The notes under the pieces are model-generated. The model searched no databases and was not told the origin of the DNA. It saw only the letters and a list, made by a program, of their open reading frames with translations. Source: Spirosoma aureum (lineage in GTDB: Bacteria > Bacteroidota > Bacteroidia > Cytophagales > Spirosomataceae). Taken from it: DNA of 64,000 bases. The translations under genes and the position numbers were made by a program. The stretch lies in contig NZ_CP050063.1 in NCBI RefSeq assembly GCF_011604685.1, positions 2,502,501-2,566,500 of the forward strand, read 5' to 3'. Positions 3,773 through 60,641 of this stretch are shown one piece after another (position 1 is the stretch's first letter; each line of letters opens with the position of its first letter).

Positions 3773-3809
3773 TGTCCGTCAGCGTACGCAACTTGTCCGT
3801 TTTTGGACA
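3773..3809 (+). promoter_or_regulatory. Tandem TGTCC-N6-GGACA operator before the PadR gene (site A)
   Basis: A perfect dyad TGTCC-N6-GGACA lies at 3794-3809. A weaker copy starts 21 bp earlier (TGTCC at 3773, right half GTACG). The same pair occurs at 18741, 44233, 47025 and 60536, each before a -24/-12 type element. The centre of the strong dyad is about 74 bp from the GG of the promoter at 3874, one helical turn farther than at the other four sites. Probably an enhancer (upstream activator) site for an NtrC-type activator; the protein is not in this window. Confidence 0.7.
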
Positions 3810-3873
3810 GTGCTTCGTAGCGATAAATCCGGAATCTGGCGATTCCTGCTCAGAAAAGCCCCATTAGTCAGTT

Positions 3874-3890
3874 TGGCAAGGCATTTGACA
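3874..3890 (+). promoter_or_regulatory. Putative sigma-54 promoter of the PadR-P3 unit
   Basis: TGGCA-AGGCAT-TTGACA fits the -24/-12 layout (TGGCA-N6-TTG); the second dinucleotide is GA rather than the canonical GC. It lies about 50 bp before the PadR start codon and 74 bp after a TGTCC-N6-GGACA dyad. Confidence 0.6.
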
Positions 3891-3940
3891 TACAGAAATA
3901 GAGGAAATAAAAAGAGCGCTACAATTTTATCGATTACCTC

Positions 3941-4276
3941 ATGCGACGAAGTGACTTAGGTGAGTTTGAAGAGGTTGTTTTGCTGGCTGTAGCCGTACTT
4001 TCTCCCAAAGCTTATTCGGTGGTTATCGCTGAAGAGCTCGAACGGGAAACCAACCAGACTGTCAGTACGGGGGCCGTGCATGCCGCCCTGCAACGACTCG
4101 AACAGAAAGGGTATTTAACCTCCTATCTGGGCGAGGCAACGGCCGAACGGGGCGGACGACGGAAACGCCTGTTTACGGTTACGGCACTGGGCGGGCGGAT
4201 CATGAGCGAGGTGCATCTGGTTCGAAATCGGATGTGGGAGCGGATCATTCCTACTATTCGGCTGGAATGGAGCTAG
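3941..4276 (+). CDS. PadR-family transcriptional regulator
   Basis: A 111-residue winged-helix regulator. It begins RRSDLGEFEEVVLLAVA and contains the PadR pattern of a helix near 24-36 (YSVVIAEELERET), a recognition helix near 43-56 (TGAVHAALQRLEQKG) and a wing with GGRRKRLFTVT near 73-83. PadR proteins are usually local repressors that respond to toxic compounds, phenolics or antibiotics. The gene lies only 16 bp before P3 and is the first gene of the PadR-P3-P4-P5-P6 run, a common pairing with prefix-domain permeases in Bacteroidota. It therefore probably tunes this block. Its promoter looks sigma-54 dependent (3874), which is unusual for a small repressor. The ATG at 3941 fits the family start. 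Confidence 0.9.
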   Translation: MRRSDLGEFEEVVLLAVAVLSPKAYSVVIAEELERETNQTVSTGAVHAALQRLEQKGYLTSYLGEATAERGGRRKRLFTVTALGGRIMSEVHLVRNRMWERIIPTIRLEWS

Positions 4277-4292
4277 TAGCCCGTTGTGTGCT

Positions 4293-7043
4293 ATGAAATC
4301 GAAGCCCCCAAACCCCGGAAAAGGCCCATCATCCGTGAAACATCGGCCCGCGCCTGGATGGATAACTAAACTCATTGAGTGGCTGTGCGCCCCGCATCTG
4401 CGGGAAGAGGTGCTGGGCGATCTCCACGAACGCTATGCCTTACGAGTAGAGCGATTGGGTGAAGCCCAGGCCCGCCGACGGTATTGGCGGGAAGTGCTGG
4501 CCTATATGCGGCCTTCTGTGATTAAACGAAAATCAGCGGTCCGAGGATTCGGCCAATATCCTAACCCAACAGCTACAGACATGCTACGGAATTATGTCAA
4601 AATCGCTTTTCGAACCCTGAGCCGACATAAACTTTATACGGCCCTCAACGTGGCTGGTTTGACCTTCGGTATCACCTGTTTTCTGCTGATCGGATTATAC
4701 CTGTTCGATGAGTTGACGTTCGACCAGCAGCATAGCCGAACGAACCGGATTTACCGGGCCATTCAGCATAAAAAAACACCTACAGAAGACCTGACCATTG
4801 CGGCATCGAGTTACAAAGTAGCCGAAGAATCGAAGAAAAGCATTGGCGAAATCGAAAACTCGGCTCGGATTACCCGAACCGGAAGAGCCAATATAACAAA
4901 TCCGGAAAACAAGAATACGTTTCAGGAAACCGTCGTCTTTGGTAACCCAGGCTTGTTGGAGATTTTTGATTTTGAGGCCATTGATGGTGATAGTAAGTCG
5001 GCTTTGAACGAGCCTAATTCCATCATTCTTGCCGAAGAGTTGGCACAACGTCTTTTTAACACGACGCAGGTTGTCGGAAAAACCGTTGAGTTTGAATTTA
5101 TACCAGATAAGCCGCTGAAGATAACTGCCGTTCTGAAAAATCATCCCCGGAATTCAAGTTTCGATTTCAATCTGGTTATATCAGAAGCGACGATCAGCAG
5201 CGATCAGGATTTTGATGAAAGTACGTCTAACTGGGCGTCCCAAAATTTCATGACGTTCTTTTTGTTGAAAGATAAAGCCAATCCGGAGGTAGCCGCGTCG
5301 AAAATTACGCATTTACTCAATGCCAATGTCAAACTGGATGCAGGCACTTCTATGAGCTATAGCCTGCAACCGCTGGCTGACATTCACCTGTTTTCGGAGC
5401 ATATTATAGACGGTGCCAGAAATTCCAACGTAGAAGCAATGAGCCGGGGCGTTTTCCTCTACATCAAAATCTTTGCGATTGTGGCTCTGTTTGTCTTGCT
5501 CATTGCCTGCATCAATTACATGAATCTGGCCACAGCCAGGGCTTCCAACCGGTCGAAAGAAATTGGCGTTCGCAAAGCCAGTGGAGCGTTTCAGAGTCAT
5601 CTTATTCATCAGTTTCTAACTGAATCACTGGTTGTAACCGCCATCTCGTTTGGTTTGGCCGTAGTACTGGTGAATATACTGCTTCCTACCTTCAATGAAT
5701 TCACCAATAAAGAACTCTCGCTGGGTATTCATAGTGATTACCGTATCTGGATTTATACCCTGCTTGCTCTTGTTGTTACAGGTTTATTGTCAGGTAGTTA
5801 TCCATCATTTTTGTTGTCGAAGTTCAGCCCGCTGTTTTTGCTGAAAAATCTCAAGATCCAGAACAGGAGTGGTTTGTCGTTGCGGAAAGGATTGGTTGTT
5901 TTTCAGTTTACGATATCGGTCGTCATGATGATTGCTACCATCGTGCTTTTTCAGCAGGTCCAGTTTGTGAATAACAAGAATTTGGGCTTCGATAAAGAAT
6001 TATTGCTGGTAATCGATATCAATAGTAGTAAAGTACGAACTGATGCCGAAACGATCAAAAGCGAATTTAGACGAATCGCTGCGGTCAAAAATGTATCGGT
6101 TACCTCCAGAGTGCCGGGAGAATGGAAAACAATTCCAACGGTCAAAATCAGGACCGAAGGAAATACCGATGAACACAAAGTTGCTTACCTGATCGGTGCT
6201 GATGAAAACTTTGCCAAAACCTTTAATGTGCGTCTCTTGAACGGTCGGAATTTTGGTGGAATGAGTGATTCTACGTCTGTCATCCTCAACGAAACAGCTG
6301 CTAAGCTGCTCGGTATCAAGGAGGCCTCGGCACAACCAATTGAAATGCCAGCCAGAGCAATGGGAGGAAGCTATAATCCGCTCAACGAGACGAATCAGCC
6401 TTTTAAAGCAAGAGTCATCGGCATTGTAAACGATTTTCATTTTCAATCATTACGCGAAAAAATTGCTCCGATGGTATTGGCCTACCAGAAGAATCCGGTG
6501 CATAACATCGACTACTTTACCGCACGGATCGAAGGCCAGGATATTCCGGCTACACTGGCCAAAATGAATGATGTTCTGGTCAAAATTGACCCTACAAATC
6601 TGCTGGAGTATCACTTTCTGGATGAGCAACTGGCCCGTTTTTATGCCGAAGACCGACGCCGTGAAACCTTATTGATCTGGATTGCGCTGGCTACGATTTT
6701 CATCGCCTGTCTGGGGCTTTTTGGCCTGGCCACCTACGCTGCCGAACAACGGATTAAGGAAATTGGTGTTCGCAAAGTACTGGGAGCCAGTATTTTGAAT
6801 TTAACAGCTTTGTTGTCGAAAGATTTCCTGAAGCTGGTCCTGATCGCCAATGGCATTGCTTTTCCGCTAGGCTGGTGGGTAACGAATCAATGGCTAAACG
6901 AATTCGCTTACCACATCAGCGTCGAATGGTGGGTATTTGTTGTGGCCGGCGTAGTAGCGATTACCATTGCCCTGGCTACTGTCAGTTATCAGGCAATCAA
7001 AGCGGCTTTAATGAATCCAGTAAAATCCCTGCGCTCAGAATAA
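4293..7043 (+). CDS. P3: ABC permease with N-terminal prefix domain
   Basis: A 916-residue permease, the longest in the array. The ATG at 4293 is preferred over a TTG at 4284 because it is the only ATG that includes the whole prefix. Residues 1-96 are the cytoplasmic prefix with APHLREEVLGDLHERYAL near residue 37; the core begins at Met97. Motif SKEIGVRKASGAF near residue 420 and RIKEIGVRKVLGAS near 822 mark the two membrane halves. The second ectodomain has an insertion (IEMPARAMGGSYNPL near 685) before the conserved VIGIVNDFHFQSL. The core is unlike those of P2/P4/P5 although it shares their prefix. It follows the PadR gene closely and ends 47 bp before P4, consistent with one operon. Confidence 0.95.
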   Translation: MKSKPPNPGKGPSSVKHRPAPGWITKLIEWLCAPHLREEVLGDLHERYALRVERLGEAQARRRYWREVLAYMRPSVIKRKSAVRGFGQYPNPTATDMLRNYVKIAFRTLSRHKLYTALNVAGLTFGITCFLLIGLYLFDELTFDQQHSRTNRIYRAIQHKKTPTEDLTIAASSYKVAEESKKSIGEIENSARITRTGRANITNPENKNTFQETVVFGNPGLLEIFDFEAIDGDSKSALNEPNSIILAEELAQRLFNTTQVVGKTVEFEFIPDKPLKITAVLKNHPRNSSFDFNLVISEATISSDQDFDESTSNWASQNFMTFFLLKDKANPEVAASKITHLLNANVKLDAGTSMSYSLQPLADIHLFSEHIIDGARNSNVEAMSRGVFLYIKIFAIVALFVLLIACINYMNLATARASNRSKEIGVRKASGAFQSHLIHQFLTESLVVTAISFGLAVVLVNILLPTFNEFTNKELSLGIHSDYRIWIYTLLALVVTGLLSGSYPSFLLSKFSPLFLLKNLKIQNRSGLSLRKGLVVFQFTISVVMMIATIVLFQQVQFVNNKNLGFDKELLLVIDINSSKVRTDAETIKSEFRRIAAVKNVSVTSRVPGEWKTIPTVKIRTEGNTDEHKVAYLIGADENFAKTFNVRLLNGRNFGGMSDSTSVILNETAAKLLGIKEASAQPIEMPARAMGGSYNPLNETNQPFKARVIGIVNDFHFQSLREKIAPMVLAYQKNPVHNIDYFTARIEGQDIPATLAKMNDVLVKIDPTNLLEYHFLDEQLARFYAEDRRRETLLIWIALATIFIACLGLFGLATYAAEQRIKEIGVRKVLGASILNLTALLSKDFLKLVLIANGIAFPLGWWVTNQWLNEFAYHISVEWWVFVVAGVVAITIALATVSYQAIKAALMNPVKSLRSE

Positions 7044-7090
7044 AGAATGTCGAATTCCTGATCGGAACATGCAGGTTAGCATTATCCAGT

Positions 7091-16534: not shown

Positions 16535-17347
16535 ATGCAACGCTTCCTGTTAACGATCTTACTTGCCTGCTTTACCCAGGCTATTGCGTCGGCTCAATTA
16601 CAACAACCAACACAAAAGAATGCGCCGTTTCTATTGAAAACCCAGTGGGATCAATATGGTAGTTATGCCAGTTATACACCCGAAAATCACGTGCTGGGTT
16701 GCTGGAGTACCGCCCTTGCTCAAATCTTTTTTTACCATCAGTTACGACCGACCGGTATCGTGAATTACCAGTGTTCAAAAGGGTATAAAATTCAGGATAC
16801 CTTATCGAATCATGCCTTTTCGTGGGATCAGTTTGCATCACGTATTGAACCAACTACATCCGCCGATGCAAAAAACACGGTAGCCTTATTTTCGTACCTA
16901 ACCGCCGAAGCGATTCGCAAAGATTTTGGCACGAGTCGATACCTGGAGATGGTCAATCCGGTTGGGCAAATCAACAAACACTTTCCGTGTAACGCTGAAT
17001 TTTATGTGTCGTTCTCCGAGCCGATTCCCATTCCGCAAGCTCAGCTGGAAGCCATTGCCAAACAGGAAGATATTCGAAATGTGCTGAAACAAGACGATGT
17101 GGTAGGGCTGATCCGGAAGGAGATCGATGCCGGACGGCCCGTATATTTTCATTTCGGCAATTTCACAACCTACGGGCATTCGACCGTCATTGATGGTTAT
17201 CAACAGGAAAATGGCACATTCTGGGCTCACATCAATTATGGATCTGGTGGTCAACGTAATGGATGGTACGATTTGTTTAAGCCAATCGATGTAACTGACG
17301 ACATAAAACTCAGGGCCTTTGTCGCCATTAAGCCGAATCGGGAATAG
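16535..17347 (+). CDS. Secreted C10 (streptopain-like) cysteine protease
   Basis: A 270-residue protein with a signal peptide (residues 1-20, ending IASAQ). The C10 pattern is clear: Cys56 in GCWSTALAQIFFYHQ is the expected nucleophile, His215 in YGHSTVIDGYQ the catalytic histidine, and Asn234 in HINYGSGGQRNGWY the asparagine; the Trp that usually follows Asn is Tyr235 here. Streptopain-type enzymes usually carry a long propeptide, but here the catalytic Cys comes only about 35 residues after the signal peptide. The protein is therefore short and may lack self-inhibition, or may be an inhibitor or noncatalytic relative. It stands between the AraC-type regulator and the NamZ-like gene, all on the same strand. 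Confidence 0.82.
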   Translation: MQRFLLTILLACFTQAIASAQLQQPTQKNAPFLLKTQWDQYGSYASYTPENHVLGCWSTALAQIFFYHQLRPTGIVNYQCSKGYKIQDTLSNHAFSWDQFASRIEPTTSADAKNTVALFSYLTAEAIRKDFGTSRYLEMVNPVGQINKHFPCNAEFYVSFSEPIPIPQAQLEAIAKQEDIRNVLKQDDVVGLIRKEIDAGRPVYFHFGNFTTYGHSTVIDGYQQENGTFWAHINYGSGGQRNGWYDLFKPIDVTDDIKLRAFVAIKPNRE

Positions 17348-17470: not shown

Positions 17471-18706
17471 ATGAAAACTGGTTTCCTTTTCTTTCTCCCG
17501 TTGCTACTCGGATTTCTTTTTCCGATTAACCATTTAGCATTTGTCGATGGACCGGTTACTGCTGTTGGTGTGAACGCAAATCCAATCGTGACAGGTGCAG
17601 ACCAAATTTCGTCCTATCTGCCTTATCTAAAGGGGAAACGCATTGGAATGGTGGTGAATCAAACCTCCATTATTGGCCGTAAACCGAGCGTCGACAGCCT
17701 GGTCAGTCTGGGCGTAAACATCGTAATGATTTTCGGGCCTGAGCACGGCTTTCGCGGTAATGCCAGCAACGGCGATCATGTCGATGATAGTGTTGATTCC
17801 AGAACCGGCATTCCGATTGTTTCTTTATACGGCAAAAACAGGAAACCATCGAAGGAGCATCTGGCCAATATTGATTTACTGATTTTCGACATTCAGGATG
17901 TTGGTGCCCGTTTTTACACCTACATCAATACGCTTAACCATGTGATGGAAGCCTGTGCCGAAAATAACAAGGAGCTGATGATTCTGGACCGGCCTAATCC
18001 AAACGGCTTTATTGTCGATGGCCCTATTTTAGAGGATCATCTCCATTCGGGCATTGGTATGCATCGAATTCCCATTACGCATGGGCTTACCATGGCCGAA
18101 TTTGCTCAGATGATTAATGGCGAAGGATGGGGAATCCCGAAAAACCAGTGCAAACTTCGGATCGTAAAAGTAGCTAACTACACGCACGATATGCCGTATA
18201 CGTTACCCGTAATGCCCTCGCCTAACCTCAACACGCAGCAATCGGTCATGCTGTATCCCAGCATTTGCTGGTTCGAGGGAACAATTGTCAGTCAGGGGAG
18301 AGGGACCTATATGCCTTTTACGGTACTGGGTGCGCCCGCACTGAAAGGCATTTATCCCTTTTCGTTTCGGCCGGTCAGCCTGAAAGGCATGAGCGAAACG
18401 CCGTTACATCAGAATACCGATTGCTATGGGATTGATCTACGAAAATATGATATCACTATCCTGCGAAAAACGAAGAAGCTCAATCTGCAATGGCTAATGA
18501 AACTGTACAAGGCGTATCCCGACAAAGCCCGGTTTTTTGATAGGAGCCAGAGTACGCAGATGGGGAATTTCGCGTTTCTGGCTGGTACCGAAAACCTAAA
18601 ACAGCAAATTATTGCGGGTAAAAGTGAAAAGGAAATTCGCCAGAGCTGGGAACCGGGGCTGTCGGCATTTAAGCAAATGCGCAAAAAATACCTGATCTAT
18701 CCCTGA
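17471..18706 (+). CDS. namZ: DUF1343 / NamZ-type exo-beta-N-acetylmuramidase
   Basis: A 411-residue secreted protein with a hydrophobic signal segment (residues 3-18). It has the DUF1343 hallmarks: KGKRIGMVVNQTS near 54, GPEHGFRG at 89-96 with the conserved Glu91, DIQDVGARFYTYI near 142, and DRPNPNG near 174. Characterised NamZ proteins remove N-acetylmuramic acid from the ends of peptidoglycan fragments, so a role in cell-wall recycling or feeding on other bacteria is likely. The window shows no MurNAc transporter or kinase. A terminator and the next sigma-54-like promoter region follow within 130 bp. Confidence 0.88.
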   Translation: MKTGFLFFLPLLLGFLFPINHLAFVDGPVTAVGVNANPIVTGADQISSYLPYLKGKRIGMVVNQTSIIGRKPSVDSLVSLGVNIVMIFGPEHGFRGNASNGDHVDDSVDSRTGIPIVSLYGKNRKPSKEHLANIDLLIFDIQDVGARFYTYINTLNHVMEACAENNKELMILDRPNPNGFIVDGPILEDHLHSGIGMHRIPITHGLTMAEFAQMINGEGWGIPKNQCKLRIVKVANYTHDMPYTLPVMPSPNLNTQQSVMLYPSICWFEGTIVSQGRGTYMPFTVLGAPALKGIYPFSFRPVSLKGMSETPLHQNTDCYGIDLRKYDITILRKTKKLNLQWLMKLYKAYPDKARFFDRSQSTQMGNFAFLAGTENLKQQIIAGKSEKEIRQSWEPGLSAFKQMRKKYLIYP

Positions 18707-18740: not shown

Positions 18741-18777
18741 CGTTCACAATCGGACGTAAAGTGTCCACTTTCGGACA
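18741..18777 (+). promoter_or_regulatory. Tandem TGTCC-N6-GGACA operator (site B)
   Basis: A perfect dyad lies at 18762-18777 and a partial one (CGTTC-N6-GGACG) starts 21 bp earlier at 18741. The centre of the perfect dyad is 62.5 bp from the GG of the promoter at 18831. A terminator stands between operator and promoter, so the operator can act only as DNA, not as part of the new transcript. Confidence 0.7.
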
Positions 18778-18791
18778 GCGTTATTCAGATG

Positions 18792-18825
18792 AAGGCCGTT
18801 TCTGACGTCAGAAACGGCCTTTTTC
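18792..18825 (+). terminator. Perfect 30-bp palindromic terminator
   Basis: AAGGCCGTTTCTGAC and its exact complement form a 30-bp palindrome (18792-18821) followed by three more T and a C. It should stop transcription from the NamZ-like gene in front of the next promoter. Confidence 0.85.
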
Positions 18826-18830
18826 GTTCA

Positions 18831-18846
18831 TGGCACGGCTGTTGAC
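18831..18846 (+). promoter_or_regulatory. Putative sigma-54 promoter of the 25-kb unit
   Basis: TGGCA-CGGCTG-TTGAC matches the -24/-12 layout with GA instead of GC at -12. It lies about 30 bp before the start codon at 18877, which itself has a good ribosome site (GCAGGAG). All permease genes from P7 to P15 follow in the same direction. Confidence 0.62.
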
Positions 18847-18876: not shown

Positions 18877-19506
18877 ATGAAACCTATTCTAATTCTTTTA
18901 ATGCTCGTTTCTGGCTTTATGTCGTTGGCGCAATCATCGTCGACGCTCAATACGGTCATAAACGAAGACGGTAAGGTAATGTCCATTCAGGTCGATGGCG
19001 AACGAAATGGGCGTGCAGTGAAGTATGATCGAACATTTGATGTAACTAAACTAAGCAGTTCAGAAAAGGATGCACTTAAAAACCGGGTTCTCGATTCGCT
19101 GGGAATCGGCCAATCAATCTCGATTCCGGAAGCCGTTGCCCATCGGGATCGCTCCCCCGGCGATTCGGAGGGGGTAGCTGTTCCGGCCAAACCGCGAGAG
19201 GCCCCATCGGTAACGATACCGAAGCCGCCTGTTCCGCCCATCCCTCCGGCAGACGCTGGCCAGACGGTTGTCACATTCCGTTGCGAAAGCTGTACCGGAA
19301 AAGTAAAGCTTGAAATTACCAGTCCAACTGAAGATTACTCCATTGAACGGGATGCAAAAGTGAATACCGACAAACGATTATTCCCGTACCAGATACCACT
19401 GAGTTCGGGAGAATATAACCTGAAATACTACCAGAACGGAGTACTGCAAATTCAGTCGAAGTTCACAGTGAAGTCGGGCGAAACAAATACGGTTGTCGTT
19501 AAATAA
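18877..19506 (+). CDS. Secreted protein, paralogue of the 38383 gene
   Basis: A 209-residue protein with a signal peptide (cleavage probably after SLAQ, residue 19). Residues 20-82 match the gene at 38383: I-x-N/D-x-DGK-x-x-SI-x-V-x-G, then YDRTFDV, then AL-x-x-x-x-LDSL. A proline-rich linker follows (about 95-130), then a distinct C-terminal domain that looks like short beta strands (VTFRCESCTGKVKLEI, then NLKYYQNGVLQIQSKFTVKSG), similar to a secretion-associated or cytochrome-like immunoglobulin fold. No enzyme motif is visible. It is the first gene behind the sigma-54-like promoter at 18831 and is followed by P7. Confidence 0.75.
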   Translation: MKPILILLMLVSGFMSLAQSSSTLNTVINEDGKVMSIQVDGERNGRAVKYDRTFDVTKLSSSEKDALKNRVLDSLGIGQSISIPEAVAHRDRSPGDSEGVAVPAKPREAPSVTIPKPPVPPIPPADAGQTVVTFRCESCTGKVKLEITSPTEDYSIERDAKVNTDKRLFPYQIPLSSGEYNLKYYQNGVLQIQSKFTVKSGETNTVVVK

Positions 19507-35391: not shown

Positions 35392-35928
35392 ATGCAAAAA
35401 CACACGAGTTTAGGAACGCTCATTCTGCTTCTGGTAACGCTTGTCAAAGGGTATGGACAAGCAACAGAAACGCGATCCATTCAATCTTTTGACGGGATTA
35501 AAACGGATGGGTTAGTACAAGTGTACCTTCAGCAGGCCGAAAAAGAAGGCCTTCAACTGTCGGTTAAAGGAATTGGTCTGAAGGATATTATTACTAACGT
35601 AGAGAATAACGTATTGACCGTAAAAACGGAGGGTGACTATAACGGCGAAGAGATTAAGGTGTACGTGACCTATCGACAGCTGAAAAGCATTGCGGTTGGT
35701 GGCGCTTCCAAATTATTCGGAAAGTCTACCATTAAAAGTAAAACGCTCGCCATAGCTACCAGTGGAGCCGGAGACGCTTTTTTAACGGTTGATGTGGATG
35801 ATCTCCAGATCGCGATGACGGGAGCCGGAAATCTGACGATCGGAGGCCGGGCGAAATCCGAGAAGATTGTAACAACAGGTCCGATCAATGGCCGCCTGAA
35901 TAAGAGCGGGTTAATCACCACTAAATAG
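35392..35928 (+). CDS. Secreted head-GIN (DUF2807) domain protein
   Basis: A 178-residue protein with a signal peptide (about residues 1-23, ending KGYGQ). After it comes RSIQSFDGIKTDGLVQVYLQQ, the usual opening of the DUF2807 or putative auto-transporter adhesin head-GIN domain, then beta-helix-like strands with SGAGDAFLTVDVDDLQIAMTGAGNLTIGG near 122-150. Homologues are usually somewhat longer, so this may be a reduced version. Such domains often accompany PadR, PspC and envelope-stress genes in Bacteroidota. It is embedded between P12 and P13 and likely cotranscribed. It is structurally reminiscent of the TSGGS-repeat protein at 60748. Confidence 0.86.
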   Translation: MQKHTSLGTLILLLVTLVKGYGQATETRSIQSFDGIKTDGLVQVYLQQAEKEGLQLSVKGIGLKDIITNVENNVLTVKTEGDYNGEEIKVYVTYRQLKSIAVGGASKLFGKSTIKSKTLAIATSGAGDAFLTVDVDDLQIAMTGAGNLTIGGRAKSEKIVTTGPINGRLNKSGLITTK

Positions 35929-44232: not shown

Positions 44233-44271
44233 TGTCCGCAAATGGTCAGCGATGCCGTCCGTTTGCGGACA
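44233..44271 (+). promoter_or_regulatory. Tandem TGTCC-N6-GGACA operator (site C)
   Basis: Two dyads, TGTCC-GCAAAT-GGTCA (44233) and CGTCC-GTTTGC-GGACA (44256), lie 23 bp apart. Their outer arms also pair with each other (13 of 14), so the pair is a larger dyad. The centre of the second dyad is 60.5 bp from the GG of the promoter at 44323. The arrangement is nearly copied at 47025 before P17. A terminator role for the hairpin is an alternative, as TTTGTTT follows. Confidence 0.7.
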
Positions 44272-44322: not shown

Positions 44323-44338
44323 TGGCATAGGAGTTGAG
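44323..44338 (+). promoter_or_regulatory. Putative sigma-54 promoter of P16
   Basis: TGGCA-TAGGAG-TTGAG fits the -24/-12 layout with GA at -12. The start codon of P16 is 187 bp downstream, so the transcript would have an unusually long leader. Confidence 0.55.
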
Positions 44339-44520: not shown

Positions 44521-44524
44521 AACA

Positions 44525-46978
44525 ATGATCGTAAACTACCTGAAAATCACCCTGCGCAATCTGCGTAAAAATCGGGTGTTCTCGCTCATCAATAGTGCGG
44601 GCCTGGCTCTCGGCATTGCCGCTTTTGTGCTGATTCTGGAATACGTTGCCTACGAACGGAGCGTGAACAGCTTTCATGCGAATCTGCCCACACTGTACCG
44701 AATGCTGTCGCAAACCAAATCGGGCGATATCTGGGTCGATATGGCTCCGGCTGTGGCACCGTTGGCCAAACAACAGTTCCCTGAAGTGAAGAATTTTTGC
44801 CGGATAGCTGAAAACTCCGCCAATGGTATTGTTTCGGTTTTGAGCAATGATCAGGATAACCAGGACCCAAAATCATTTCGGGAGAGTAAGCTGGGCTATG
44901 CCGATGCCAGTTTTTTCACGCTCTTTACGTTTCCATTGGTGCAGGGAACAGCCGCATCAGCGATAAATCAGCCGAATACCGTTGCGCTTTCCCAGTCGCA
45001 GGCCCGGAAGTATTTTGGCAATGCAAAAGCATTAGGCCGCACCCTGACGCTCAACAATCAGTTTGGAAAAACATTATATACGGTTACGGCTGTGTATGCC
45101 GACATTCCCCAAAATTCCGATCTGGTTTTTGATGCCGTTTTTTCGCTGCAAACGCTGGCCAATCCGGCAAACCTGAATGGAAATACGTGGGCACGGCTCG
45201 ACGGTTTCGACGGTTCTTATCTGACCACGTTTCTGCAACTTCCGGCGGATGGCGATTACAAAGCTCTGGAGGCAAAATTTAACGCATACAAGAAAAAAAT
45301 AAAGCCCGAAGACGAAAGTGTATTTCTGTTGCAACCCGCCAAAAACATTCATCTGGCAGCTTCGCTCGATGATCCATATCGTACGAGTGGTAGCCTGGGA
45401 TTTGTGTATCTGCTGAGTGGCATTGCTAGCTTAATTCTGCTGATCGCCTGGTTCAACTATGTAAATCTGTCTACTGCCGGAGCGTTGAAGCGGGCAAAAG
45501 AAGTGGGCGTTCGGAAAGTGATTGGAGCTAGACAGGGTCAGCTGATCGGACAGTTTCTGGGTGAATCACTGCTTTTGAATATCGTTGGATTTGCACTGGG
45601 AATTGGCCTCGTCACCTCATTGCAAGGAGTCTTCAACGATTTTGTGAAGAAAGATTTATCAATGACTATGCTGAGTAACAGTGGCTTCTGGCTGGTTGGG
45701 TTGGGGTTACTGGTGGTGGGTGCACTGGCGTCGGGTGGGTACGTGGCCTTTGCCCTCACATCGTTTCGGCCGGTGCAGACCCTAAAAGGTGCTTATCAGA
45801 CTGGCAAGGGGAACTGGCTACGCAAAACGCTGGTGATCGCTCAGTTCAGCGCGTCGGTAGCGTTGGTAATCGCAACGATGGTGTTATATCGGCAGTTGCA
45901 ATATATGCAGGATAAAGATCTGGGGGTTAAATTATCTCAGCGTGTGGTTATTCAGGGGCCACAGGTCAAGATAAATGATTCGTTTTCGTCGGGGACAACA
46001 CGTCTGGAAAATGAATTAAGTCAGTTACCGTACGTAAAAAACTTTTGCCAGACAGGCATTGTGCCCGGTAACTTCTACAACTTCACAGCTGGCGGTATCA
46101 CCAAGCAAAACGCACGACCCGGCGATGATAAGAAAAGCTATTCAATGGGAATTATTGATGACCGTTACCTGCCAACGTATGAAATCGGGCTGGCCGCCGG
46201 GCGGAACTTCACCCAGCGCGAAGCCGAATTAGGCTGGGAAAAGAGTGCTAAACTGCTGGTCAATGAAACAGCTGTTCGCCAGTTAGGCTTTACATCGGCT
46301 CAACAGGCAGTGGGTAAATTGATCAACTGGGGGCAACCCTACGAAATTGTGGGCGTCGTCCGCGATTACCATCATCAGGGTTTACAACAGGCTATTGAGC
46401 CGGTTATTTTTATGCCCCGCCGTTCGGTAAGTGACCTGACTATTCAACTAGCTACCGATCCCGTCCAGGGTGGTCGATTGACGGAGAAAATAGCGGAGTT
46501 GGAGCGGATTTATAAAGCCAGCTATCCGGGCAATCCATTCGAGTATTACTTCGTGGATGAACATTATAACGAACAATACCAGAGTGAGCTGCAGTACGGC
46601 CAGGTTTTCACGATAGCCTCAGCCCTAGCCATCTTTATTGCCTGTCTGGGTTTGTTCGGTCTGGCTGCCTATACCACTGAACAACGCACAAAGGAGATTG
46701 GGGTGCGCAAAGTGCTGGGTGCATCGGTGAGCAGTATTGTTACACTACTCTCCAAAGACTTTCTGAAACTAGTCTTTATCGCCATTGTTATTGCAGCGCC
46801 CCTGGCCTGGTGGGGTATGAATAACTGGTTGCAGAACTTTGCGTACAAGGTTGATCTGGAGTGGTGGGTATTTGCCCTGGCCGGTTTGCTGGCTGCCGGC
46901 ATTGCCGTTCTGACGGTGAGTTTCCAGAGCGTCAAAGCGGCCCTGATGAATCCGGTGAAGAGTTTGCGATCGGAGTAA
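44525..46978 (+). CDS. P16: ABC permease without prefix
   Basis: An 817-residue permease with its own sigma-54-like promoter. The start is MIVNYLKITLRNLRKNRVFS, and TM1 (AGLALGIAAFVLILEYVAYERSV) is atypical in having Glu-Tyr near its end. TM2 leads to AWFNYVNLSTAGALKRAKEVGVRKVIGA (near 305-333); the second motif TKEIGVRKVLGAS is near 722. TM5 is followed by DKDLGVKLSQRVVIQGPQ, replacing the usual NKxLGYxxxxVL. A terminator is not evident; P17 has its own promoter 139 bp downstream. Confidence 0.95.
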   Translation: MIVNYLKITLRNLRKNRVFSLINSAGLALGIAAFVLILEYVAYERSVNSFHANLPTLYRMLSQTKSGDIWVDMAPAVAPLAKQQFPEVKNFCRIAENSANGIVSVLSNDQDNQDPKSFRESKLGYADASFFTLFTFPLVQGTAASAINQPNTVALSQSQARKYFGNAKALGRTLTLNNQFGKTLYTVTAVYADIPQNSDLVFDAVFSLQTLANPANLNGNTWARLDGFDGSYLTTFLQLPADGDYKALEAKFNAYKKKIKPEDESVFLLQPAKNIHLAASLDDPYRTSGSLGFVYLLSGIASLILLIAWFNYVNLSTAGALKRAKEVGVRKVIGARQGQLIGQFLGESLLLNIVGFALGIGLVTSLQGVFNDFVKKDLSMTMLSNSGFWLVGLGLLVVGALASGGYVAFALTSFRPVQTLKGAYQTGKGNWLRKTLVIAQFSASVALVIATMVLYRQLQYMQDKDLGVKLSQRVVIQGPQVKINDSFSSGTTRLENELSQLPYVKNFCQTGIVPGNFYNFTAGGITKQNARPGDDKKSYSMGIIDDRYLPTYEIGLAAGRNFTQREAELGWEKSAKLLVNETAVRQLGFTSAQQAVGKLINWGQPYEIVGVVRDYHHQGLQQAIEPVIFMPRRSVSDLTIQLATDPVQGGRLTEKIAELERIYKASYPGNPFEYYFVDEHYNEQYQSELQYGQVFTIASALAIFIACLGLFGLAAYTTEQRTKEIGVRKVLGASVSSIVTLLSKDFLKLVFIAIVIAAPLAWWGMNNWLQNFAYKVDLEWWVFALAGLLAAGIAVLTVSFQSVKAALMNPVKSLRSE

Positions 46979-47024: not shown

Positions 47025-47063
47025 TGTCCGCAAATGGCCAGAGAAACCGTCCGTTTGCGGACA
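47025..47063 (+). promoter_or_regulatory. Tandem TGTCC-N6-GGACA operator (site D)
   Basis: TGTCC-GCAAAT-GGCCA (47025) and CGTCC-GTTTGC-GGACA (47048) lie 23 bp apart, almost the same as site C. The centre of the second dyad is 62.5 bp from the GG of the promoter at 47117. Confidence 0.7.
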
Positions 47064-47116: not shown

Positions 47117-47132
47117 TGGTACGGCGTTTGGA
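47117..47132 (+). promoter_or_regulatory. Putative sigma-54 promoter of P17
   Basis: TGGTA-CGGCGT-TTGGA fits the -24/-12 spacing with one change in each half. The P17 ATG follows about 40 bp downstream. Confidence 0.55.
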
Positions 47133-47172: not shown

Positions 47173-49557
47173 ATGCTACGTAATTACATCAAAATAACCG
47201 TTCGCACGCTCTGGAAAAACAAGCTGTTCAGTGGTCTCAATATAGTTGGCCTCGGAATCGGCATGGCCGCCGTATGGTTGATGGCGCTGTATGTAATCGA
47301 TGAATTGAGCTACGACCGGTTTCATACCAAAGCCGACCGCATCGTTCGGGTGGTTCATTATGCGCAGTGGCCAGGTGGTAATCTAAAACTGGCACCCACA
47401 TCGGCCCCCTACGCGTCAGCCCTGCAAAATGATTATCCGGAAATTGAAAAAACGGTTCGTATCAACCCCGAAGGAGGAGGAACGATTACGTTCAGGGACA
47501 AAAAAATGGAGGTAGGCGATATCTTTTTTGCCGATAAAACAATCTTCGATGTCTTCACTTTTCCGTTACTCTATGGCGATCCGAAGTCGGCGCTGAGTAA
47601 ACCCCAAAGCATTGTACTGACAAAGAGCGTTGCCGAAAATTTGTTTGGTGATTCCCGCAAAGCGATTGGTCAGACCATTGAGTTTGGTAATCATTTCCCG
47701 AATACCATTACGGGCGTAATGGACGATGTTCCGTCTAATTCGCACCTGCAATTCAGGGCATTGCGGTCCTTGCCGACGAATTACACAAACGGCTGGGAAA
47801 ATTTTGAATTGTACACCTATCTGCTGCTGACAGAAGGGAGCAGCCATAAGGCGCTGGAGGCTAAGCTGCCGGGTTTTTATCAGAAATACATAAAAAAAGA
47901 AATGGGGGAGCTTGACTATCGTATGGAGCTTCAGCCACTGACTTCGATCCATCTACGCTCGCATCTCGATTATGAAATCGGCCCCAATGGTAATGTGGCA
48001 ACCGTCTCAATTTTCGGAATAGTGGCCGCCCTGATTTTATTGATTGCCTGCATCAATTACGTGAATTTATATACGGCCCGCTCGCTCAAGCGTACTCGTG
48101 AAGTAGGTGTCCGGAAAGCAATCGGTTCATACCGATTACAGCTCATCGGGCAGTTCCTGACGGAGTCCATGCTGATGACGTTCATGGCTGCCCTGGTCGG
48201 TTTTAGTCTGGTGATTATGGCACTGCCTTATTTTAACCAGATGGCCGACAAAACGCTGTCGATTGGAGGAATAGGGGAGAGGCTGTTTATTGTTGCCTTA
48301 TTTTCAATACTTGTTGGGGTGTTAAGCGGTCTGTATCCCGCATTGTTACTCGCCAACTTTCGGCCGGTAGCCGCCCTGAAAGGTATAGTCGGAAATCAAC
48401 TGGGAAGCATCACCTTCAAACAGTCGCTGGTGGTCTTTCAGTTTGTAGCAACGGTGGTATTGATTGCCTGCTCGGGTGTGGTTTATCGCCAAATGGAATT
48501 CGTTCTGCATAAGAATCTGGGATTCAACAAAGAGCAGGTACTTACTTTTCATATAGATAATGAGGAAGTTCGTCAAAGAGTCGATGCGCTGAAAGAACGG
48601 TTAACGCAAAGTCCATTGATTGAAAGTGTAGCGGCCGCCAGCAATCCATTGGGCAATAACAGCATTGGCGGAGCCGGTATGTTCTTCGAGCAGAACGGCG
48701 CAATGCCATCCGGTACGCAAATTGTTCAGAAGTTTTCGGTGGATTCAGACTACCTGAAAACGCTGCAAATCAAACTTCTGAGCGGTCGTAGCTTCTCAGA
48801 ATCGTTTAAGAGCGATTTGGGAGGTGCCATGCTGATCAACGAAACCCTGATGAAGCAACTGGGCTGGAAAGAGCCAATAGGCAAACGGGTGAAATATTAC
48901 ATTGATAACGAGAAACACACGGCCGAAGCTCGGGTCGTGGGTGTTGTAAAGGATTTTCATACCTACTCGTTGCAGCACAAGATCGAACCGTTGGTATTAC
49001 AGATGCCTCAACCCGCCGATAAGGACAATGTGTTCGTTCGGATTCAGCCCGCCAAAACGAAGGAAGCGCTAGCCTACATCCAGTCTGTTTATCGAACGTT
49101 TGATCCGACGGCAACACTGGATTTTCATTTTCTCGACGAAAACTTCTCTAAACAGTATAAAGCGGAGCAGAAGCAGGGTGCAGTCTTATTATCCTTTACA
49201 ATTCTGGCCGTTTTAATCGCCTGTCTGGGCCTATTTGGCCTGGCCGCTTTTGCTGCTGAACAGCGAAACAAGGAAATTGGCGTTCGTAAAGTACTAGGAG
49301 CATCGGTGAGTAGCATCGTCATTCTGCTCTCCCGCGATTTTCTGAAACTGGTCCTGATTTCCATCGTGGTCGCTACGCCCCTGGCCTGGTATGCCATGAG
49401 TCGATGGCTTCAGGATTTTGCCTACCGTATTACGATCGAGTGGTGGGTATTTGCATCAGCGGGTTTACTGGCTATAATCATCGCTCTGGCAACGGTGAGT
49501 TTTCAGTCCATCAAAGCTGCGTTGATGAATCCGGTGAAGAGTTTGAGGGCCGAGTAA
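47173..49557 (+). CDS. P17: ABC permease without prefix
   Basis: A 794-residue permease. TM1 (IVGLGIGMAAVWLMALYVIDEL) and the segment NYVNLYTARSLKRTREVGVRKAIGS (near 290-316) set it apart from its neighbours. The second motif has Asn for Thr (RNKEIGVRKVLGAS near 698), and the C-terminus is NPVKSLRAE. Ectodomain 2 contains a Gly-rich GNNSIGGAGMFFEQNG stretch near 494. Its stop lies 21 bp from the end of the opposite-strand Uma2-like gene. Confidence 0.95.
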   Translation: MLRNYIKITVRTLWKNKLFSGLNIVGLGIGMAAVWLMALYVIDELSYDRFHTKADRIVRVVHYAQWPGGNLKLAPTSAPYASALQNDYPEIEKTVRINPEGGGTITFRDKKMEVGDIFFADKTIFDVFTFPLLYGDPKSALSKPQSIVLTKSVAENLFGDSRKAIGQTIEFGNHFPNTITGVMDDVPSNSHLQFRALRSLPTNYTNGWENFELYTYLLLTEGSSHKALEAKLPGFYQKYIKKEMGELDYRMELQPLTSIHLRSHLDYEIGPNGNVATVSIFGIVAALILLIACINYVNLYTARSLKRTREVGVRKAIGSYRLQLIGQFLTESMLMTFMAALVGFSLVIMALPYFNQMADKTLSIGGIGERLFIVALFSILVGVLSGLYPALLLANFRPVAALKGIVGNQLGSITFKQSLVVFQFVATVVLIACSGVVYRQMEFVLHKNLGFNKEQVLTFHIDNEEVRQRVDALKERLTQSPLIESVAAASNPLGNNSIGGAGMFFEQNGAMPSGTQIVQKFSVDSDYLKTLQIKLLSGRSFSESFKSDLGGAMLINETLMKQLGWKEPIGKRVKYYIDNEKHTAEARVVGVVKDFHTYSLQHKIEPLVLQMPQPADKDNVFVRIQPAKTKEALAYIQSVYRTFDPTATLDFHFLDENFSKQYKAEQKQGAVLLSFTILAVLIACLGLFGLAAFAAEQRNKEIGVRKVLGASVSSIVILLSRDFLKLVLISIVVATPLAWYAMSRWLQDFAYRITIEWWVFASAGLLAIIIALATVSFQSIKAALMNPVKSLRAE

Positions 49558-49578: not shown

Positions 49579-50028
49579 TTATAAGGCAAACTGTCCCAGA
49601 TCAAGATGGAGCACTTCGGAAAAGGATGAACGAGTAGCTACGCCACCATCGCCCTTTCGGTAACGGGACCATTGATGGGTTTTATAATTGTAGACAAACC
49701 CTTCCTGAATCCCATAATCGTGGTCTTCGATCAGCCGGACTACTTTCAGCAGGTCGTTTCGTTCACCGTTGGTCTGACAGACCTCAATAATAAGGCGGGT
49801 TTGTTCGGCCGTGTGGTCGAACAGGAGCACATCAGGAACCGGATTGCCATATCCCTCAGCCAGCATGGTTTCGGCCAGCGGCTCATACGGAATGCTTTGG
49901 TCCTTGTAATACAAAATGCCCAGTTCGACATGGAGCCTTGAAATAACCTGCTGATGCTTTAAAGGCGCATTTACGCCCATGTCATCGTCATGAACGAACG
50001 TTGGCGATAAAGGATTTGGTGGGTACAT
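49579..50028 (-). CDS. Uma2-like putative PD-(D/E)xK nuclease-fold protein
   Basis: A 149-residue protein on the strand opposite to the whole permease array. NPVPDVLLFDHT near 62 followed by RLIIEVCQTNGERNDLLKVVRLIEDHDYGIQEGFVYNYKTHQWSRY near 77-122 follows the layout of Uma2/DUF820 proteins: PDV, then hydrophobic-EV, then D-x-x-K, then a GxxEyW-like segment. Candidate metal-binding residues are Asp near 66 and Glu near 81. Uma2 proteins are common in Bacteroidota and cyanobacteria; biological role is mostly unknown and some may be mobile-element associated. It separates P17 from P18, so P18 cannot share the P17 transcript without reading through antisense to it. Confidence 0.6.
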   Translation of the reverse strand: MYPPNPLSPTFVHDDDMGVNAPLKHQQVISRLHVELGILYYKDQSIPYEPLAETMLAEGYGNPVPDVLLFDHTAEQTRLIIEVCQTNGERNDLLKVVRLIEDHDYGIQEGFVYNYKTHQWSRYRKGDGGVATRSSFSEVLHLDLGQFAL

Positions 50029-58000: not shown

Positions 58001-58335
58001 ACAATGACTTCGTCCAGCGATGTGGCGTCATTTTGTAAGCGTACCGAAATAGAACTCTGAGCCCCAATCGGCACCTCAGTGGTTTTCATGCCAATGAAGG
58101 AGAAAATCAGAACACCATTTTTAATTAAATTATCAGGAACTGAAATGGTGTACGCCCCTTCTGCATTGGTCGATGCACCAACGATTGTTCCCTTTACAAC
58201 TACGTTCACACCGGGTGTGGGCGAGTTATCTTCTCCAGATGTGACTATACCTTTAATGGTCCGGCTCTGTGCAACGAGCTGGATAGGTAAATACAAGGAG
58301 AAAAACAGCATCAATAGTAAACTTCTGTTTCGCAT
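55090..58335 (-). CDS. SusC/RagA-family TonB-dependent outer-membrane porin
   Basis: A 1081-residue outer-membrane transporter. The signal peptide ends LVAQ near residue 22. A carboxypeptidase-D regulatory-like domain (about 26-110, GIVTSGEDNSPTPGVNVVVKG) precedes the plug (SLDEVIVSALG near 130, QIRGQNTITGSTQPLVIVDGIPI near 176, LKGASAAALWGSRAANGVVVITTKKG near 230). The rest is beta barrel, ending with the typical C-terminal aromatic (VSIKINY). It imports a surface-captured ligand with TonB-ExbBD energy and forms an operon with the SusD gene. No sigma-factor or anti-sigma gene accompanies it, and no extra STN domain is present. Confidence 0.94.
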   Translation of the reverse strand: MRNRSLLLMLFFSLYLPIQLVAQSRTIKGIVTSGEDNSPTPGVNVVVKGTIVGASTNAEGAYTISVPDNLIKNGVLIFSFIGMKTTEVPIGAQSSISVRLQNDATSLDEVIVSALGFKENADKRGATASKIEAKDLVRSGETGVINGMSGKAAGVQITRSAGDPGAGSYIQIRGQNTITGSTQPLVIVDGIPISNSTLGDGVAGVTQQSRLNDINPDDIASMQILKGASAAALWGSRAANGVVVITTKKGANSDKVNISYSSTVSFDKPNLLHPLQNTYGQGADGVYNPTSQNSWGDKIANRAGGDDVVNMNGARFEAYNGQTFYPIITKNSKQTFQEERKDAVFRTGTYIDNNLAISGGNDKSNFYLSVGDLRQKGIINGQSDYNRTTLRFNSERRFNDIIKATTNATYARTTSNRIQRSNSVNGLYIGMLRTSPDFDSRAYKGNYFASPTASAIPNRQRAYRNYLGALANPIYNDPLWAINELTNFSEVDRFILSSELLITPASWFDITLRGGLDANTDHRITNYPVNSASNSGLGTYNEEIYKESEMNGDLIGRIFKDFGKNINTTLIVGFNINDRKYLNIGANMNTFIVPDAPANFGNSLAVNDAPYRTTTNRRMARLYSTLNVGFYNQLFVNASVAGEAGSTFGSQTKSTFYYPSADVAWQFTQLPMLRDKSILSFGKLRASYGVVGVQPDAYRNTTTYVNASFSSWANTLSGAGYGNGAYVRSSRQGDPFLRPERKTEWELGTDLRFFNNKLTAGFTYYQNEIKDLLLDVAAAGSTGYTSKYTNAGSMSNKGWELELHYNLLTNKDFNWNVFGNVSRNINRVTNLAGTDIITLGGFSTTASTVAKVGYAMSALYGGVYQRTETGALQLNANGFPQVASQFGVIGDPNPDYRGGFGTNFSYKKVSLNVLFETFQGGDFYNGTRGTLYNFGTHRDVGNDVTLTQDLKNYAGKTITAGSTVRGNIQDFGAGPVLLDQSYYTSIGGGFSTLVEQFITDASWTRLREVSLGYSISSPKFRQKSRLQSIDVTVTGRNPVLWTKMVGVDPETALNGASNSRGQDYFNSPNTKSLLVSIKINY

Positions 58336-58733
58336 CTCACTTAGTTTTAGATTAAAAAAGTACTATTTTGACTGATTATTGAACGGATACCGGAACTGAT
58401 TGCCTTGGGCTACCAGCAGCTAAACCAGAGCTGGCTATTAAGACCTTTTTCCGAATACGGGCAAAAAACCAACAGCCATCTGGCGTCAGAGTAAATGTTA
58501 TTCGGATGTATATGGATGAAAAGGAATGAACAGGTAGTGGTGCTTTTAATCCAAATATAATGTGGTATTTATCTAATAGTCAAGATAAAATATTATATTC
58601 TTATAATTTTGCCAATTATATTATATTTAAAACTCAAATATTTAAAATATTCTATTAATTACGCTTCGTCTGTTGAGAATTGATTTGATTTTAAGGTAAT
58701 TGGCATCACCAATCAGACTCGCCTTATGTAGCT
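58336..58733. other. AT-rich divergent intergenic region, SusC / S41 protease
   Basis: This 398-bp gap contains the promoters of two divergent genes. The part from about 58550 to 58680 is strongly AT-rich. A small dyad TTTATCT-N8-AGATAAA spans 58568-58589. No convincing -33/-7 Bacteroidota promoter, -24/-12 element or TGTCC dyad could be assigned. Confidence 0.55.
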
Positions 58734-60491
58734 ATGAATAAGCTTTTAATTGCACTATTTCTATTTCTTGATTTGCGTATCGCTACGGCTCAATCTGGAT
58801 TGACTGCCACGCAGGCTTATGATTATCTTCAGGGCGAACGTGCCCGGGCTCGCGTGCCCCAGAATGGAATGGACAAGCCTCCCGTTGATAGTCTTAAAAA
58901 GGCTGAGCAGATTTTACTGGATGCATTAACTTACTATCATCGACCAGACGTGCAGGACTTAGCTAAAGGAAGTTCCAGTCTGTTTTATCGAAAAAGTGAT
59001 ATTTCATTCGACCTGGCCCGTATTCAGGCTAAACTGGGAAATAATGAAGCCGCAGCAAAAACGCTGATCTATCCGTTGACAGGAAAATTCGCTTCGGCCT
59101 ATGCAGGCTATATCACCGAAATGAATGAATTTGAGGAAGTTCGAAAAGATCCGTCCATTAAGTCTATGTTGGCAAAAGGACAGGCTGCTGCTCGATTGTT
59201 TAATTCTACGGCGCTGAAAACACCCTATAAAGCCAACATTAGCGAAGACGAAAAAGTAGCTGGTCTTTCAAAGTTGTGGTCGGAAGCTAAATACAACTTT
59301 GCCTACTTCGACCATATTCCGGACATCGACTGGGATAAATTATACCTGGAATATCTTCCTAAAATTCGCGCTACCCGTTCAACGGTCGATTATTTACATG
59401 TACTCGAATCGTTCTGTGCCCAATTGCACGATGGCCACACCGATGTTTGGGCCAGTGACCCAATACTTGCCGATTCGGTAGCCCGGCGTCCGCCCATTCG
59501 CCCGATGCTGGTAGAAGACAAGGTGCTGGTTCTGGATGTAACCCAGGATAGTCTCGAAAAAACGGGTATCCGGCCGATGCTCGAAATCATACGGATTGAC
59601 GGTACACCCGTCCGGGAGTATGCTGATCGCTATGTGCGGCCTTATCAGAGTGGGTCAACACCACAGAACATAGATGTTGGTACGTACAGCTATCGGCTGC
59701 TAAGAGGGCCTAAAGATAAGCCTGTTACTCTTGAATTTCGTGACCAATCAGGGCAAACGTTCAGCCGCCAGTTGCCGCGCTCGGGTTATACAAAACTGAA
59801 ATCATTGCCAGCCTTTACCTTTCGTATTTTACCCGGAAATGTTGCCTATGTTCAATTGAATAACTTCGAGAACGACAAGGCACTGAAGGGATTCGAAGCG
59901 GCTTTTGATTCAATTGCTGTTACGAACGCGCTTATTCTTGACATCCGGCAAAACGGCGGTGGCGATAGCGGATATGGCTGGGCTATTCTGGGTTTTCTGA
60001 CTGACAAACCAATGCAGACCGGGTCGTATTCTTCGCGTCTATACAGTCCTCTGCGCCGGGCACGAGGTGAAACGGTTGTGTTCGAGCCCGTCGAAACAAA
60101 CGAACACGGCTGGCCTGCCAATGGTAAAAAGCTGTATAAAAAGCCTGTAGTTGTACTCACCAGCGGTCAGACGTTTTCGGCAGCTGAAGATTTTGCGGTA
60201 GTGTTCGATGTCATGAAACGAGGTGCAATCATTGGTGAACCTACGGGTGGTAGTACGGGGCAACCGCTGGCGTTTTCACTGCCAGGTGGTGTTATGGCGC
60301 GGGTTTGTACAAAACGGGATATGTACCCCGACGGTACGGAATGGAATGCGAAAGGGATTCAGCCAACCGTGTTGGTCAGGCCGAGAGTTGCCGACTGGCA
60401 GGCTGGCCGCGATACAGTTCTGGAAGCCGCACTTGCCCATTTGGGTGTGCAGAAAGATCCGGTAAAAAATAAAAAAAAGGCTAAAAAGTAG
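58734..60491 (+). CDS. S41-family secreted peptidase
   Basis: A 585-residue protein with a signal peptide (residues 1-19, ending TATAQ-like). Residues 20-190 are helical with no known domain, perhaps TPR-like (AEQILLDALTYYHRPD near 55). Residues 190-260 form the N-terminal S41 part (FCAQLHDGHTDVW near 224), followed by a PDZ-like part (about 260-350). The protease core has NVAYVQLNNFEND near 370, ALILDIRQNGGGDSGYG near 400, and VVLTSGQTFSAAEDFAV with the predicted nucleophile Ser482. The S41 family cleaves exposed C-terminal peptides or tags. It lies divergent from the SusCD pair and ends just before the operator of the 60748 gene. The last residues are a Lys-rich tail. Confidence 0.9.
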   Translation: MNKLLIALFLFLDLRIATAQSGLTATQAYDYLQGERARARVPQNGMDKPPVDSLKKAEQILLDALTYYHRPDVQDLAKGSSSLFYRKSDISFDLARIQAKLGNNEAAAKTLIYPLTGKFASAYAGYITEMNEFEEVRKDPSIKSMLAKGQAAARLFNSTALKTPYKANISEDEKVAGLSKLWSEAKYNFAYFDHIPDIDWDKLYLEYLPKIRATRSTVDYLHVLESFCAQLHDGHTDVWASDPILADSVARRPPIRPMLVEDKVLVLDVTQDSLEKTGIRPMLEIIRIDGTPVREYADRYVRPYQSGSTPQNIDVGTYSYRLLRGPKDKPVTLEFRDQSGQTFSRQLPRSGYTKLKSLPAFTFRILPGNVAYVQLNNFENDKALKGFEAAFDSIAVTNALILDIRQNGGGDSGYGWAILGFLTDKPMQTGSYSSRLYSPLRRARGETVVFEPVETNEHGWPANGKKLYKKPVVVLTSGQTFSAAEDFAVVFDVMKRGAIIGEPTGGSTGQPLAFSLPGGVMARVCTKRDMYPDGTEWNAKGIQPTVLVRPRVADWQAGRDTVLEAALAHLGVQKDPVKNKKKAKK

Positions 60492-60535
60492 CCGGATTTT
60501 TACCGGTTCCAATAGACAGGATAGCCCCCAGATAC

Positions 60536-60572
60536 TGTCCATCATCGAACAATGTCTGTCCGATGATGGACA
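60536..60572 (+). promoter_or_regulatory. Tandem TGTCC-N6-GGACA operator (site E)
   Basis: TGTCC-ATCATC-GAACA (60536) and a perfect TGTCC-GATGAT-GGACA (60557) lie 21 bp apart; outer arms ACTGTCCATCATCG and CGATGATGGACAGT are fully complementary. The second dyad centre is 62.5 bp from the GG of the promoter at 60626. The hairpin could also help terminate the S41 gene. Confidence 0.72.
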
Positions 60573-60625
60573 GTTTAAAATAGATGCGTTACTTAAGAGG
60601 TTGATTTTCAGTGCTATTTTTGATA

Positions 60626-60641
60626 TGGCACGGCACTTGCA
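60626..60641 (+). promoter_or_regulatory. Canonical sigma-54 promoter of the 60748 gene
   Basis: TGGCACGGCACTTGCA matches the full -24/-12 consensus (TGGCACG-N4-TTGCA), including the invariant GG and GC 10 bp apart. It is the best of the five in the window and validates reading the other four as relatives. Confidence 0.8.

Follow-up and report, generated by a model that had tools for sequence, protein, structure and literature searches.

Five copies of one regulatory module lie within a 64,000-nucleotide stretch of the Spirosoma aureum genome (the window; genome positions 2502501-2566500 on one 8.9-Mb contig), and the genome as a whole holds at least 31. In its typical form, the module is a pair of TGTCC-N6-GGACA dyads followed at set distances by TGG(C/T)A-N6-TTG, which resembles the -24/-12 element of sigma-54 promoters. 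We consider it very likely that the modules are sigma-54 promoters with tandem enhancer dyads, through which one NtrC-type response regulator and its kinase drive a large permease regulon. We computed the module and its geometry, the genome-wide set, the coherence of the target genes, the adjacency of the regulator to a module, and a change of dyad that goes with a change of regulator in relatives; binding to the dyads, dependence on sigma-54, the pairing with the kinase, the signal and the role are inferred.

Geometry and genome-wide distribution of the module

All five modules are on the + strand of the window, where a sequence-only reading had put them (window and genome coordinates are used separately here, the latter marked as such). 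The distal dyad, proximal dyad and -24/-12-like element are at 3773..3788, 3794..3809 and 3874..3889 in module A; at 18741..18756, 18762..18777 and 18831..18846 in module B; at 44233..44248, 44256..44271 and 44323..44338 in module C; at 47025..47040, 47048..47063 and 47117..47132 (TGGTA) in module D; and at 60536..60551, 60557..60572 and 60626..60641 in module E. The centre of the proximal dyad is 74, 63, 61, 63 and 63 bp from the middle of the -24 GG in modules A to E, respectively, 0.5 bp more than first given purely by convention, and the step from distal to proximal dyad is 21-23 bp, in keeping with the 21 or 23 bp reported before. The initial description of these dyads as TGTCC-N6-GGACA pairs stands for the proximal dyads of A, B and E, which are exact, but the proximal dyads of C and D each have one mismatch, and the distal arms are imperfect everywhere, with one mismatch in C, D and E, two of ten positions in A, and three in B, where the dyad-like sequence was judged by eye. 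The element at 60626 does fit the full sigma-54 consensus, reaching the top possible score for TGGCACG-N4-TTGCA.

Such fixed geometry had been argued to be hard to obtain by chance, and 200 dinucleotide shuffles of the window bear this out. The window has five dyads with up to two mismatches that are followed at 56-78 bp by TGGYA-N6-TTG, whereas the shuffles average 0.055 and none has more than one; with at most one mismatch allowed, the shuffle mean falls to 0.005. Dyads with at most one mismatch are themselves enriched, with nine in the window against 1.56 expected and none of 100 shuffles reaching nine; one of the nine, at 56497, lies outside any module.

A search of the whole genome for the dyad plus promoter, as the earlier reading had proposed, gave 23 matches, against none for a reversed control pattern, and the exact dyad alone occurs 28 times, against five for its reversed pattern. 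The 28 exact dyads define 26 modules, two pairs each sharing one; with modules C and D of the window, this makes 28 modules that we measured. Three further modules of more degenerate sequence lie before operons of PadR and permease genes (PadR at genome 6806874, 4313865 and 1049602), bringing the genome total to at least 31. The five modules first noticed are thus real, but belong to a far larger set.

A -24/-12-like element lies downstream of the dyad in all 28 modules, and the distance from the proximal dyad centre to the -24 GG is 61-65 bp in 13 modules and 72-74 bp in 15, with none between. On an ad hoc scale, and with the orientation of each module taken from its better-scoring strand, the promoter element scores at least 19 in 27 modules and at least 20 in 25, values reached by 5.6% and 1.7%, respectively, of random one-strand stretches in which an equal number of offsets was scanned. 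The bases expected of a sigma-54 promoter are nearly invariant, both for the -24 GG (G in 28/28, G in 27/28) and for the -12 TTG (T in 28/28, T in 27/28, G in 28/28), and the genome has a single rpoN gene (Sigma54_DBD match, 1.1e-54). A second dyad with at most two mismatches lies 21-23 bp upstream in 24 of the 28, compared with about 0.3% by chance. Twenty-five modules are outside every open reading frame (ORF) called by our script, and the ORFs that contain the other three resemble overcalls. The spacers between dyad and promoter have diverged (median pairwise identity 0.34, with none of 378 pairs above 0.6), which argues that the module geometry is not a product of recent copying.

Without the left arm, the pattern GGACA-N35-65-TGGYA-N6-TTG returned 41 rows, of which 22 fall in 21 known modules and the other 19 are no more than the 19 rows of the reversed control. 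We also considered the spacer as a conserved terminator hairpin. Strong folding is confined to two of the 28 spacers (genome 2469601, z -5.3; genome 2521262, z -6.7; the third-strongest has z -2.8), and the hairpin is therefore not a general part of the module. Within the module B spacer, a strong hairpin and T run at window 18778-18830 resemble an intrinsic terminator placed between enhancer and promoter. The consensus for an IHF site is WATCARNNNNTTR. Sequences like it, sought after inspection, lie between enhancer and promoter in 6 of the 28 spacers of this genome and in 9 of 27 in relatives, against means of 0.25 and 0.19, respectively, in 500 single-base shuffles. An element resembling TTGATAATCAG recurs in module spacers (for example at genome 2428743-2428796) and is IHF-like in some.

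Genes behind the modules

Most modules (22/28) lead into a permease operon: 14 precede a PadR gene and then a permease, five precede a permease directly, one precedes HlyD-ABC-permeases, and two precede another ORF followed by permeases. The other six lead to exported-looking proteins, namely four paralogues of about 125 aa, one protein of 238 aa and one Toastrack protein. The four paralogues, at genome 3955114, 4226697, 6045767 and 7047575, each lie directly behind a module, and the one tested has weak similarity to DUF3244, under the cut-off.

Within the window, module A is followed on the + strand by a PadR-family regulator (3941..4276; Pfam PF03551) and a MacB/FtsX-type permease with permease prefix domain 2, identified by profile matches (4284..7043). 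Module B precedes a 209-aa protein with a signal-peptide-like start, judged by eye, and no Pfam match (18877..19506, +), and then permeases. Modules C and D precede a MacB/FtsX-type permease (44525..46978, +) and a permease (47173..49557, +), respectively, and module E precedes a Toastrack (DUF4097) protein that also has a signal-peptide-like start by eye and is LiaG-like below the cut-off (60748..61797, +). Two of four permeases tested match NF038404, the family of permease prefix domain 2 transporters, with scores of 84.2 and 92.8 against a cut-off of 35; these are the two that flank the padR gene of the window, and the other two gave no match.

The window covers part of an array at genome 2431159-2554952 that holds 41 permeases. 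The count is 41 rather than 40 because the permease at 4284-7043 is present, having been lost to antisense ORFs by our simple gene picker, which may have lost other genes too. An ATPase related to the HlyD-linked one occurs as a single copy among the ORFs called in the array. Genome-wide, MacB_PCD has 130 domain matches, up to two per protein. There are 18 PadR matches, of which 11 are behind one of the 28 modules and three behind a degenerate module; three further module-linked PadR genes were recognised by sequence similarity only. No module was found at the other 4 of the 18 (genome 6443123, 7896494, 7359513 and 4649345).

Several other genes in and near the array were noted. A Peptidase C10 protein and a NamZ exo-muramidase (window 16535-17347 and 17471-18706) lie between permease units, and a second Toastrack-type protein (DUF2807; window 35392-35928) lies inside one. 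Genes of 147-149 aa on the opposite strand within the array look alike by eye (window 49579-50028, -; genome 2459285-2459728, -), as do eight tandem small proteins of 112-206 aa shortly past it (genome 2572482-2576002).

The candidate activator and its relatives

The genome has 15 Sigma54_activat matches above the cut-off, ten of them strong. One belongs to an NtrC-type response regulator at genome 2425453-2426829 (-), with Response_reg, Sigma54_activat and HTH_8 all above cut-off, about 76 kb left of the window and 1.9 kb from the first module of the array (genome 2428727), the module that precedes HlyD-ABC-permeases. An NtrC-type gene near another copy of the module is what the earlier reading had suggested looking for. 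Given one rpoN, ten strong activators and a regulator near a module, an NtrC-type activator working at promoters that would depend on sigma-54 is the best reading. The candidate partner is a histidine kinase on the same strand (genome 2421558-2422940, -), with HATPase above the cut-off and PAS just under it; its sequence, judged by eye, shows two membrane helices with hardly any periplasmic loop.

Relatives of the regulator were compared at the best 80 loci (1.38 Mb), the closest named orthologues being from Spirosoma, at up to 91% identity. A relative of the kinase is adjacent to the regulator or close by, in the same orientation, in 22 of 27 loci examined and not in the other five, and a relative of HlyD is on the other side of the regulator, divergent, in 17 of the 27. 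In 29 loci with 60-91% identity (L123-L150 and L155), no exact dyad is as frequent in the 450 bp before the regulator gene as TGTCC, which occurs in 15 loci, the next-best dyad occurring in two; 19 of the 21 TGTCC dyads found in all 80 loci fall in these 29 upstream regions. With one mismatch allowed, a TGTCC dyad is present within 450 bp in all 21 of loci L131-L150 and L155, and in none of the eight loci L123-L130. A glycosyltransferase gene is next to the regulator in all four of these eight that were examined, and two of the eight have an exact dyad 1.9-2.0 kb upstream. When only the direction leading away from the regulator was searched, 27 of the 29 loci had a dyad, with no more than one mismatch, followed at 60-66 or 71-76 bp by a promoter-like element; no such combination was found in L127, where 712 bp upstream were covered, or in L130. 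With the 21 exact TGTCC dyads scored in either direction, promoters directed away from the regulator reached 21.0-22.5 and those directed towards it at most 20.2. These loci appear to preserve an ancestral gene order, with the dyad upstream of the regulator and opposite HlyD-ABC-permease genes.

The remaining 51 loci (51-60% identity) have TGTTC (seven) and GTATC (five) as their commonest exact dyads, many having no exact dyad of the classes searched, and in these loci TRASLYRR/TRSSLYRR- and TRTALYRR-type helices replace SRQALYRR/SRAALYRR. Across these loci, the dyad changes with the recognition helix of the regulator.

The module itself recurs in other genomes. In a survey of 200 genomes of the family, the strict module is present in 98, with 517 matches against seven for the reversed control. 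Among the matches listed, 150 spans measure 73 (n=4), 81-85 (n=73) or 92-95 bases (n=73), with none between; the last class may be incomplete because the pattern ended at 95, where 21 spans fall. Of the 200 genomes, 94 have both module and regulator, four the module only, 22 the regulator only and 80 neither, kinship being uncorrected. In 40 hand-picked modules from 11 genomes of seven other genera, the dyad-to-GG distance is 53, 62-65 or 72-75 bp. Behind 22 of them PadR comes first among the genes recognised, behind 12 a permease, behind two an ABC ATPase, behind one HlyD and behind one Toastrack, such that 38 of the 40 lead into genes of these kinds; two had none. Across the class, 7 of the 247 genomes scanned, S. 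aureum included, carry the strict module, and the matches in two (G050 and G235) may be due to chance.

One alternative is that the promoters do depend on sigma-54 while a different member of the ten strong activators recognises the dyad. The closest paralogous activator (106384-107754; locus L087, genome 97001-117000) has a very similar recognition helix, ALYRRLEKFG being common to both. However, it sits in a cluster of its own (HlyD-TolC-ABC-permease-permease-regulator-kinase), where the dyad differs (TGTGC-N6-GCACA) and is followed 61 bp on by a -24/-12-like element. Comparison of the stretches around all ten activators placed a TGTCC module close to the regulator at 2425453 only, and orthologues of that regulator have the TGTCC module across genera. 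We therefore regard a different activator as improbable. It is less probable still that the dyads are operators at which PadR represses its own synthesis, the sigma-54-like elements being coincidental. Half of the 28 modules do lie directly before padR genes, but no padR was recognised behind the other 14 (our script can miss genes), the dyad is beside an NtrC-type regulator in relatives, the -24/-12 element is phased with it, and the two best-scoring PadR matches (genome 6443123 and 7896494, with no MacB_PCD within 10 kb) showed no module; we rejected this explanation. Least probable, and also rejected, is that the modules are functionless by-products of recent permease-operon duplication: permease and PadR genes do form paralogous sets, and the 72-74-bp class consists mostly of PadR operons, but dyads, -24/-12 elements and phase persist although the spacers are unrelated, modules also precede unrelated exported proteins, and the same spacing classes recur in other genera.

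Some observations weigh against control by the regulator at 2425453 and sigma-54. The base following TTG is free (T 9, A 7, G 6, C 6 of 28) rather than giving TTGC; module 6311493 has a poor promoter (TGACA, the second G missing), and module 7951417 scores nearly equally on both strands (21.8 and 21.9). The sigma-54 contact loop of the regulator is GAFTDA, not GAFTGA, the kinase has no Pfam HisKA match, and a glycosyltransferase gene lies between the regulator and its nearest module. The padR gene at 4649345 is permease-linked yet showed no module. Lastly, the co-occurrence table rests on a regulator cut-off (E <=1e-175) that was set after the table had been seen, with kinship uncorrected. The GAFTDA loop is common to 76 of the 80 orthologues and is found in the paralogue at 106384-107754; it may go together with the TTG-N form of the -12 element.

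Proposed mechanism and related systems

NtrC-type activators, when phosphorylated, bind tandem sites about 100 bp upstream and reach the polymerase by DNA looping. The fixed helical phase of the modules and the optional bend site fit such a mechanism. We propose that the membrane histidine kinase at genome 2421558-2422940 partners the response regulator at 2425453-2426829, which, once phosphorylated, would bind the tandem dyads held on a fixed helix face upstream of each sigma-54 promoter, oligomerise, and remodel sigma-54 polymerase at TGG(C/T)A-N6-TTG. It would thereby activate an ancestral HlyD-ABC ATPase-permease operon and, after spread of the module, some thirty promoters that serve PadR-permease operons, bare permease units and a small number of exported proteins. 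In each operon so activated, PadR would act as a repressor.

As a working model, the PrsK-PrsR/sigma-54 regulon of PEP-CTERM genes (PMC1569441; PMC9850573) comes closest; as far as the accessible text of these papers goes, it likewise pairs a dedicated NtrC-type two-component system with scattered target promoters and has an enhancer motif that is sometimes repeated, with a mean spacer of 62.8 nt to the -24/-12 element (PMC1569441). Its enhancer ends in TTTACA rather than GGACA, and its targets are PEP-CTERM genes rather than PadR/permease operons. PrsR is the best-scoring NCBIfam model for our regulator, but both assignments fail, at 367.8 against 502.6 for the regulator (TIGR02915) and 81.6 against 300 for the kinase (TIGR02916). 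The enhancer TGTC-N10-GACA given for GlrR/QseF in the accessible part of PMC8745638 is satisfied by TGTCC-N6-GGACA; unlike in that system, the targets found here are permease operons, and the regulator scores 291.8 against a GlrR cut-off of 763 (NF011695). For the permeases, ADOP (TIGR03434) offers a full-length match in all four tested, with tandem paralogues and PadR neighbours, but at 264-298 bits, below the 622.3 required.

The earlier reading knew of no description of the regulon. Among the matches listed in open-access literature, which leaves subscription papers mostly outside, no paper describing the enhancer, the activator or the PadR/permease regulon came to light, but a 2025 study reports enrichment of sigma-54 promoters at COG0577 permeases in Bacteroidia and, in its accessible text, claims the first link between sigma-54 and FtsX-like permeases (PMC12316311). 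That work concerns the same kind of target gene and the same sigma factor; unlike ours, its statistic is class-wide, and the accessible text names no enhancer or activator for these permeases and lacks the word PadR.

HAAS-PadR, MacB/FtsX-fusion and Toastrack systems have been placed in an envelope-stress setting in the accessible part of PMC11237479. As here, PadR is beside prefix-domain permeases and Toastrack is in the same regulon; sigma-54 control of these genes is not mentioned in that part, and HAAS-PadR is thought there to replace two-component signalling, whereas here it would act downstream of it. Sigma-54 promoters have been tied to envelope stress in Flavobacterium, in the accessible text of PMC9723704, the main text of which nowhere mentions permease, PadR or FtsX. 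The HlyD and ATPase of the head operon match DarC/DarD models below cut-off and RND_mfp above it. Since exporter-like HlyD and ATPase parts occur with prefix-domain permeases and Toastrack proteins, an envelope-stress function is indicated, and a response to envelope or antimicrobial stress is the most likely role.

A bolder version of the proposal, which we hold only tentatively and think rather unlikely as a whole, is that one intramembrane-type kinase works with a GAFTDA-class activator, that about 40 ATPase-less permeases of the array share the single ABC ATPase at its head (genome 2430148), that PadR is a second, operon-specific gate, and that enhancer and helix have coevolved across Bacteroidota. 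If so, this coevolution would be a natural code for the specificity of Fis-type helix-turn-helix domains. The change of dyad through TGTCC, TGTTC/TGTAC, GTATC and TGTGC along with the recognition helix is in itself a data set for Fis-type DNA recognition. For a very large set of paralogous genes in S. aureum, the analysis puts forward candidates for the activator, the enhancer and the promoter, so that a single deletion and a single reporter could serve to look for the signal. It would also bring an HlyD-ABC exporter, Toastrack proteins and the PadR-permease operons together in one circuit.

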